From Algoriphagus machipongonensis (GTDB taxonomy: Bacteria > Bacteroidota > Bacteroidia > Cytophagales > Cyclobacteriaceae): a stretch of 64,000 nt of DNA. Numbering within the stretch: position 1 is the first letter of the stretch; every line of letters starts with the position of its first letter. The stretch lies in assembly GCF_000166275.1 (NCBI RefSeq), contig NZ_CM001023.1:3971001-4035000 (forward strand), in the 5' to 3' direction. The notes below the pieces were generated by a model that saw only the letters and a program-made list of their open reading frames with translations, had not been told where the DNA came from and made no database searches. A program made the position numbers and the translations under genes. This document shows, piece after piece, positions 33,645 to 34,146 of the stretch.

Positions 33645-33718
33645 TCCTTCTTAGCTCAGTTGGTTAGAGCATCTGACTGTTAATCAGAGGGTCCTTGGTT
33701 CGAGCCCAAGAGAAGGAG
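33645..33718 (+). tRNA. tRNA-Asn (anticodon GTT)
   Basis: 74 nt fold: acceptor TCCTTCT / AGAAGGA with discriminator G, D arm GCTC/GAGC, anticodon stem TCTGA/TCAGA with loop CTGTTAA, T arm CTTGG-TTCGAGC-CCAAG. CCA is not encoded. The last 31 bases recur at 34084 with the element between them. Confidence 0.97.
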
Positions 33719-33720
33719 CA
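33688..33720 (+). repeat. 33-bp direct repeat, left copy (3' third of tRNA-Asn)
   Basis: From the last base of the anticodon stem through variable loop, T arm, acceptor and two bases beyond. It is identical to 34084-34116, the right copy; the GIY-YIG gene lies between. Confidence 0.95.
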
Positions 33721-33724
33721 TATA

Positions 33725-33756
33725 AAGCCTCATTTCGAAAGATCTGAGGCTTTTTT
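33725..33756 (+). terminator. Terminator between tRNA-Asn and the GIY-YIG gene
   Basis: Stem AAGCCTCA / TGAGGCTT with a loop of about 12 bases, then six T's, five bases after the tRNA repeat. It should separate tRNA transcription from the GIY-YIG gene. Confidence 0.85.
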
Positions 33757-33773
33757 GGTTTTAAAGATATGCC

Positions 33774-34067
33774 ATGGATTTTTCAGTATATATCCTATAT
33801 TCCAGGAGTTTGGACAAATTCTACATTGGATATTCAGCCAATTTCACAGCAAGGTTGGCTTATCACAACAGTACCCAAAATAAAATCTGGACGAAAAGAG
33901 GGCAGCCTTGGGAAGTTCATCTGCTAATTGATAGGCTAGAAAAACACCAAGCTTTGAAGATGGAAAAACACCTGAAAAAAATGAAGTCCAGAAATTATCT
34001 CATTAAACTAAAAGCCGATCCTTCGGCAATCGTTGCGCTGATACAAAGATTTAGGAAAAGCATCTGA
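33774..34067 (+). CDS. GIY-YIG nuclease, gene inserted between two copies of a tRNA 3' end
   Basis: 97 residues. Motif VYILYS...KFYIGYS (Tyr6, Tyr17, Gly19), Arg27 in TARLAYHN and Glu64 in LKMEKHLKKMKSRNYL are the catalytic set of the GIY-YIG (UvrC/URI-like) fold. The end of the gene, AGC ATC TGA, is itself the anticodon-stem sequence of tRNA-Asn (AGCATCTGA in 33668-33676), so the tRNA-derived copy supplies the stop codon. A terminator precedes the gene and another follows the right tRNA copy, so it looks like a self-contained unit. Small free-standing GIY-YIG proteins are widespread and their role is not well known. Confidence 0.88.
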   Translation: MDFSVYILYSRSLDKFYIGYSANFTARLAYHNSTQNKIWTKRGQPWEVHLLIDRLEKHQALKMEKHLKKMKSRNYLIKLKADPSAIVALIQRFRKSI

Positions 34068-34116
34068 TCCCGATTCATCGGGAAGGGTCCTTGGTTCGAG
34101 CCCAAGAGAAGGAGCA
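34059..34116 (+). pseudogene. Partial tRNA-Asn copy with a foreign hairpin in the anticodon arm
   Basis: AGCATCTGA (5' anticodon stem) is followed not by the anticodon loop but by a perfect 16-nt hairpin (TCCCGAT, TC, ATCGGGA; 34068-34083), then 33 bases identical to the tRNA from 33688 on. The 5' half of the tRNA is missing. Looks like the right end of an element that carries its own tRNA 3' part. Confidence 0.9.
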
Positions 34117-34146
34117 AAACCTGATACGAAAGTGTCAGGTTTTTTT
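34117..34146 (+). terminator. Terminator after the right tRNA copy
   Basis: AAACCTGA-TACGAAAG-TGTCAGGTTT and seven T's. It directly follows the 33-bp repeat, in the place held by the other terminator (33725) after the intact tRNA. The stem sequences differ. Confidence 0.85.

Follow-up and report, generated by a model that had tools for sequence, protein, structure and literature searches.

We found that small genes for GIY-YIG nucleases recur at many tRNA genes across the phylum Bacteroidota, which suggests a little-known kind of selfish element living off tRNA genes. One such unit lies at a tRNA-Asn gene of Algoriphagus machipongonensis, in the stretch of 64,000 nucleotides that was analysed (hereafter the window; contig NZ_CM001023.1, positions 3,971,001 to 4,035,000). 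It consists of the intact tRNA-Asn, a terminator, the nuclease gene and a tRNA copy that is split by a hairpin and whose far half is identical to the tRNA (Table 1; G and L numbers are our handles for genomes and loci, G000 being this genome).

Table 1. Parts of the tRNA-Asn unit, in window positions.
Feature	Position	Strand	Source
Intact tRNA-Asn(GTT)	33645..33719	+	ARAGORN
Proximal copy of the 33-bp repeat, formed by the 3′ half of the intact tRNA	33688..33720	+	Repeat comparison
Terminator separating tRNA from ORF, GCCTCA...TGAGGC plus T run	33724..33756	+	Direct reading
GIY-YIG nuclease ORF, 97 aa	33774..34067	+	ORF call, Pfam
Relic of the tRNA 5′ part, AGCATCTGA	34059..34067	+	Alignment to tRNA
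Perfect hairpin/palindrome TCCCGATTCATCGGGA, where the tRNA copy should have its anticodon loop and 3′ stem strand	34068..34083	+	Alignment
Distal exact copy of the tRNA 3′ half	34084..34116	+	Repeat comparison
Displaced native tRNA-Asn terminator	34116..34146	+	Directly 3′ of tRNA-Asn in G021, G025

The original prediction, made from the letters of the window, had described a tRNA-Asn gene, a terminator, a gene for a 97-residue GIY-YIG protein, a 33-bp copy of the tRNA 3′ end and another terminator, and we could confirm all coordinates of this layout. The direct repeat is exact, with 396 bp from start to start, but the second copy is longer than had been claimed, since AGCATCTGA and the hairpin TCCCGATTCATCGGGA had been overlooked. 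The 3′ end of the ORF, its two final codons and the stop codon, consists of the tRNA sequence AGCATCTGA, and the hairpin of the second terminator occupies positions 34116-34143. The sequence CCCGATNNATCGGG occurs once in the window (expected 0.00) and at six places in the 4.79-Mb genome, four of them within hairpin-split tRNA copies. As had also been proposed, the nuclease comes without an integrase: the unit, shorter than 400 bp, contains no integrase ORF, and its sole gene-like ORF is the GIY-YIG gene. A terminator resembling the proximal one is also present 3′ of tRNA-Asn in G019, with no ORF there before the contig end.

The protein is a member of the GIY-YIG nuclease superfamily (Pfam GIY-YIG, E 2.4e-9, 37.8 bits with a cut-off of 22.6); NCBIfam has no family for it. 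Residues Y6, Y17, G19, R27, H31 and E64 are invariant in 22 aligned rows, and the Tyr, Arg and Glu among them are expected to have the catalytic roles known from I-TevI and UvrC. The predicted structure (pLDDT 92) is a single compact GIY-YIG domain with a short helical tail, and a separate DNA-binding module is absent from the model. The best sequence matches in the PDB are UPF0213 proteins and SLX1 (1zg2, 1ywl and 7cq2; E 6e-13 to 2e-9). The dN/dS ratio was 0.17 between the Asn nuclease and its G009 ortholog, and 0.12-0.35 in the 8 of 11 pairs that yielded a ratio (two pairs were saturated, with dS -1, the Thr units had a dS of 0, and the Ala unit L044 entered two pairs). Judged by codon sequence, these ratios show the nucleases to be under purifying selection.

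Full-length matches to tRNA-Asn were present in 34 of 40 genomes of the genus, and at the 30 loci that we read the ORF region was matched in G009 alone, where the site is occupied, with the same downstream flank and a different upstream gene. After G009, the next protein match in the genus genomes was 40% identical and lay at tRNA-Thr; a close Asn-type nuclease is found in 2 of the 40 genomes, a patchy distribution. The nearest proteins come from A. halophytocola (96%, 89% and 87% identity), the latter two probably being two copies in one strain. The original prediction had called for a comparison of occupied and empty sites, and the relatives G021 and G038 did provide empty ones. Similar sequence flanks tRNA-Asn on both sides in G038, the downstream similarity beginning 56 bp past the tRNA versus 770 bp in the window, and in G021 the tRNA 3′ half runs directly into the terminator that is found after the distal copy in the window (63 bp, 96.8%). 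From these two layouts it follows that the extra DNA was inserted 3′ of the tRNA, ahead of the native terminator, which amounts to an insertion inside the tRNA together with a carried 3′ half. The comparison shows the Asn unit to be an insertion at a site that is uninterrupted in non-carriers. The intact tRNA-Asn is 100% identical in G009 and 99% identical in G021, G028 and G037. Relative to the latter three, which are free of the ORF, the carriers' tRNA-Asn differs by one D-loop base and nothing else, and no sequence-based self-protection is visible in this comparison; the split copy is disrupted by the hairpin.

Relatives that keep both tRNA pieces without the gene, which the original prediction had named as an argument against insertion, were found in part: the tRNA-Asn loci of G028 and G001 have a second, hairpin-split tRNA copy and no ORF. 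Such pieces imply that parts of the tRNA persist or multiply in the absence of the nuclease gene. G025 carries a D-loop hairpin copy without an ORF upstream of tRNA-Asn, and psi-Asp and psi-Met copies without an ORF are found in G009. At another locus of G009 (L161, G009:C1:444300-446700) we observed eight ORF-less psi-Lys copies, in groups of three and five with a spacing of about 112 bp, each copy being the tRNA-Lys 5′ half with its anticodon arm swapped for TCCCGATTTTGATCGGGA; each group immediately precedes an intact tRNA-Lys, and a ninth copy follows a Lys-type GIY-YIG region. At L163 and L166 of the same genome TCCCGATGCATCGGGA follows GTACGGGTCT in similar contexts at separate places, possibly within another repeated element. 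Partial copies of tRNA-Asn also occur far from the tRNA-Asn gene (G026:C8:477003-477070, about 18.6 kb away; G035:C155:8858-8903; G005:C6:20688-20730; G022:C26:174579-174626), and these are probably attachment sites of ordinary integrative islands.

Elsewhere in the Algoriphagus genome, units come singly or in tandem. Its 23 GIY-YIG matches include 20 at 10 tRNA loci, with single units at Asn, Leu-caa, Leu-taa, Val, the second Met-cat gene and Arg, and several units at Asp and Thr (four each, the last truncated), Met and Pro (three each); the Pro array also contains 144-bp units without an ORF. The three matches away from tRNA genes are L013 (100 aa), L015 (a 611-codon frame) and L018 (a 460-codon frame). 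Chance adjacency could be ruled out, because small GIY-YIG genes adjoin a tRNA gene at 10 of their 11 loci though the genome has only 37 tRNA matches in total. Two layouts were seen in the genomes analysed. In the downstream type, typical of most isotypes, the order is tRNA, ORF, copy, and the copy retains the tRNA 3′ half; in the upstream type (Arg, Ser and some Met units) it is copy, ORF, tRNA, and the 5′ half is retained. In both, the far half of the copy is kept and the ORF-side half has decayed, and the copy beyond the ORF was broken in the units read, some broken copies being annotated as tRNAs by ARAGORN. Where no copy intervenes, the usual distance from tRNA to ORF start in downstream-type units is about 40-60 bp. 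The distal-most unit is the most divergent in five of nine arrays (and is truncated too in this genome's Asp and Thr arrays), and no trend of distal divergence was seen in the other four; array order fits growth at the tRNA side in the five and is uninformative in the four.

That this might be a general system of Bacteroidota was borne out, with units at Asn, Asp, Ala, Val, Thr, Pro, Lys, Leu, Met, Arg, Ser and Phe tRNAs. Profile A1, made from 22 tRNA-linked GIY-YIG proteins, matched at least 264 of 392 Bacteroidota genomes (at most 13 candidates scored per genome), a figure that covers any family member, tRNA-linked or otherwise, and is no tally of linked units. A same-strand tRNA gene lay within 1.5 kb at 46 of 50 sampled loci of the phylum, which is no unbiased rate, since the loci came from the best-scoring of the listed matches to a profile of linked proteins (30 chosen by the tool and 20 by hand, mostly on large contigs). 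Three of the 50 are from Algoriphagus (L095 in this genome, L100 and L111), and the arrays L173 and L174, the last units of which lie more than 1.5 kb from the tRNA, were each entered once. The four loci without a tRNA in reach are L093, L096, L110 and L177; three of them have tRNA pieces near the ORF, the queries here being the tRNAs of aligned units only rather than every isotype. A peculiarity of one strain is ruled out by G009 and by the occurrence across the phylum. In a separate scan of genome contigs one relative only, in Terrimonas, was found, and tblastn against phages (two members tried) and plasmids gave no match.

The nucleases were further compared in a tree of 109 rows and 92 columns, many forks of which are unresolved. 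The 69 linked rows, with 15 isotype labels, require 18 changes (minimum 14), versus at least 44 in 200 label shuffles; the shuffles ignore shared descent within a genus, but the Val and Met groups nevertheless span class or phylum distance. Exceptions are two separate Asn groups, two Met groups and an Ala unit (L117) in the Asp clade. As far as the tree goes, nuclease lineages are shown to keep mostly to one tRNA isotype. The original prediction had tied the distribution of GIY-YIG genes to tRNA genes, and this holds for the subfamily of the Asn unit but not for other small GIY-YIG clades of the genus: 17 small GIY-YIG proteins with no tRNA in their 3-kb loci form a clade of their own (98% SH-aLRT).

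When copies were aligned to their tRNAs, one arm was found to be replaced or split by a hairpin. The anticodon arm is mainly hit in Algoriphagus Asn, Asp, Ala, Val, Pro and Lys units, the T arm in Thr units, in Leu-taa (among the units listed) and in Asp units of other families, and the D arm in Phe units; in six of eight upstream-type Arg/Ser/Met loci a D-loop hairpin sits at 21/22 or 22/23 (L192, aligned alongside this set, proved to be of the downstream type and is outside the eight). A perfect stem of at least 6 bp was present in 56 of 72 units, compared with 628 of 3000 random windows and 8 of 47 intact tRNAs, although some of the 56 are other inverted repeats (for example L028, L037 and L108) and three L087 rows are not real units. 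The 72 were left from 87 aligned units after removal of weak tRNA alignments (score <40, Val excepted) and of identical copies.

The hairpins have conserved ends (TCC...GGA), and their inner pairs covary. In 42 hairpins, picked by their outer four bases (start TCC(C/G), end its complement), three inner positions were 82% Watson-Crick versus 42% with shuffled 3′ arms (maximum 58% in 2000 shuffles), and among 21 unique arm pairs inner pairing was 73% versus 30% (maximum 52%). Fixed ends with a covarying interior suggest that the folded strand, beyond the sequence alone, has mattered, either in the units or in a parent palindrome family. The palindrome TCCCGA(N2-8)TCGGGA occurs 22 times in this genome versus 4 for the reversed control, and 40, 51 and 59 times in G009, G021 and G037 (controls 1, 1 and 3), the G021 and G037 counts being genome totals unsorted by location. 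Only 11 of the 22 lie at GIY-YIG/tRNA loci, so the hairpin need not derive from the nuclease. The same palindrome was seen dispersed in seven genomes, G000, G009, G018, G021, G033, G034 and G037, with 10 to 59 occurrences each against 0 to 4 for the reversed control.

Separately, the 30 Algoriphagus tRNA-Asn genes (L123-L152) show unusual variation, with paired changes in the anticodon and T stems and a mean identity to G000 of 0.908 (30 genomes). tRNA-Trp (97-100%, 34 of 40 genomes) and tRNA-Tyr (96-100%, 37 of 40) hardly vary. The idea of a general arms race visible in tRNA sequence was dropped, because unit-linked Val, Asp and Lys tRNAs are conserved (0.986-0.991 identical, four genomes each) while the unlinked Gly(gcc) tRNA diverges (0.909, three genomes). 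Given these mixed values, the divergence of tRNA-Asn was left unused as evidence.

The reading that we prefer, and to which we would give only slightly less than an even chance, is that of a minimal selfish element of the homing type, which has a tRNA gene as its anchor and occupies the place in a tRNA arm that its nuclease would cut. The arm in which the tRNA gene would be cut differs between units, being mainly the anticodon arm in the Algoriphagus Asn, Asp, Ala, Val, Pro and Lys units, the T arm in Thr and Leu-taa units and in Asp units from other families, and the D loop in upstream-type Arg and Ser units. Repair of the break from the carrier chromosome would place the missing tRNA half, terminator, ORF and hairpin at the cut, the carried (near) half would rebuild a working tRNA, and the original half would remain beyond the hairpin. 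The hairpin may thus mark the insertion point and keep the far copy from being cut or from acting as a tRNA. Since the rebuilt tRNA would be a target again, units would accumulate as tandem arrays. Homing is favoured by the linkage to tRNA genes, the empty sites, isotype grouping, purifying selection, the kept far halves, the recurrent positions of the hairpins, array order (in five of nine arrays) and the precedent of SegB. Its main weakness is that the carriers' tRNA-Asn is so close to that of ORF-free relatives that it should be cut too, and nothing in the sequence explains survival. The bare domain without a module to read a long site, the structure-specific SLX1 as nearest PDB kin, the dispersed palindromes, the multiplication of ORF-free hairpin copies (eight psi-Lys in G009), the imperfect isotype fidelity, the four arrays without a distal trend and the G019 terminator also count against it.

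The main rival, unlikely in our view but with a real share of probability, is an Slx1-like structure-specific nuclease that cuts the extruded hairpin, with the tRNA pieces serving as homology arms. Repair from the same tRNA gene would give amplification, loss and isotype fidelity and would leave the intact tRNA uncut, so the self-cutting problem is avoided. The conserved ends and covarying inner pairs of the hairpins (82% versus 42% shuffled), their variable loop length, hard to reconcile with a rigid dsDNA dimer site, and the UPF0213 and SLX1 kin in the PDB are in line with this; yet the ORF-side tRNA piece is often decayed or absent, so that not every unit retains both homology arms, the nuclease would also attack dispersed hairpins that lack tRNA flanks, and the pairing signal could come from the dispersed palindrome family. 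A domesticated host function, in which the nucleases would help to maintain tRNA genes, multiply them or process hairpin DNA, with the hairpins simply silencing surplus copies, seems improbable. Purifying selection and isotype grouping would suit it, and tRNA amplification driven by SegB can benefit a phage (PMC13096335), but the close Asn-type nuclease is patchy (2 of the 40 genomes of the genus), some arrays are decayed distally, and amplification yields broken rather than working tRNA copies.

Lower still we place a small non-autonomous cassette moved in trans by an unrelated island, whose tyrosine recombinase would have the tRNA 3′ end as attachment site, with the nuclease as cargo (all our searches started from GIY-YIG genes). 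The 33-bp identity block and the restored tRNA do resemble attL/attR, and the tRNA-Asn 3′ copies that lie far off in other genomes have the look of att sites of ordinary islands; against this, upstream-type units (Arg, Ser, some Met) duplicate the tRNA 5′ part and precede the tRNA, and the hairpin occupies the would-be crossover. The tRNA copy as a plain integrase scar was ruled out by the hairpin and the 5′-type units. The least probable reading, to which we give very little credence, acts at the level of RNA: the protein would be a tRNA-cutting toxin and the hairpin-armed copies uncuttable RNA decoys, as in type III toxin-antitoxin systems. The replaced arm often contains the anticodon or T loop, psi-tRNAs form multi-copy groups (eight psi-Lys in G009) and a terminator separates tRNA and ORF; many copies, however, among them the Asn copy, the psi-Lys copies of G009 and those of the upstream type, lack one acceptor-stem half and are unable to fold into a tRNA, and we know of no established RNase activity of GIY-YIG domains.

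A bolder and more tentative proposal, whose chance we put somewhat below even, is a phylum-wide two-part system of isotype-specific minimal GIY-YIG nucleases and conserved hairpins in tRNA arms, which would be a categorically new class of prokaryotic element. Essential tRNA genes would serve as permanent homology anchors, the tRNA would be rebuilt by a carried half-gene (by neither intron, intein nor integrase), and arrays of hairpin-split copies would grow with or without the nuclease gene. If true, selfish elements would have a third means, next to self-splicing and att sites, of residing in an essential RNA gene and leaving it functional. It would help to explain the abundance in Bacteroidota of small 'GIY-YIG nuclease family' genes without an assigned role. 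Isotype-bound nucleases and natural empty and occupied alleles open it to direct tests, for which the recurrent hairpins offer a lead to the cut target. Tandem tRNA-linked arrays may also mislead tRNA annotation and shape the evolution of tRNA genes.

In our searches of the open-access PMC literature we found neither a description of a tRNA-linked GIY-YIG/hairpin system nor a counterpart of the hairpin-split tRNA copies. Several known systems share single features with the units. Islands integrated in tRNA genes use tyrosine recombinases; they too have a tRNA 3′ identity block and a restored tRNA, but the Asn unit has no integrase and is below 0.5 kb, and units also occur as the 5′ type, with a hairpin in the copy. 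REP palindromes with RAYT transposases and integron cassettes with attC likewise place a nuclease or cassette gene near a palindrome with variable stem pairs, whereas here the enzyme class is different, the palindromes are in tRNA arms and the unit is without an integrase. Type III toxin-antitoxin loci have tandem RNA repeats, transcribed and folded, upstream of the toxin; repeats do exist here (psi-Lys in G009), but many copies are incapable of a tRNA fold. UPF0213/SLX1-type GIY-YIG proteins are the best matches among solved structures, the difference being that the 17 tRNA-unlinked small GIY-YIG proteins of the genus fall in a separate clade.

The nearest known system is SegB, and the units appear SegB-like in their working, short of a proven member. 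SegB is a free-standing GIY-YIG homing endonuclease of T-even phages that lies beside tRNA genes (PMC13096335; PMC2988022). It cuts inside tRNA genes and drives tandem amplification of the segment, probably via homology between the tRNA and the segB end, and its motif is RAWTSGAAC (PMC13096335). By our own observation, this motif on the opposite strand resembles the tRNA T loop, one of the hairpin sites in the Bacteroidota units. Both systems have a GIY-YIG nuclease by tRNA genes and tRNA sequence common to the 3′ end of the nuclease gene (PMC13096335; PMC2988022). Unlike SegB, the Bacteroidota units are chromosomal, encode a bare domain of 80-100 aa in lineages that are mostly bound to a single isotype, and have their gene sandwiched between an intact tRNA and its hairpin-split copy.
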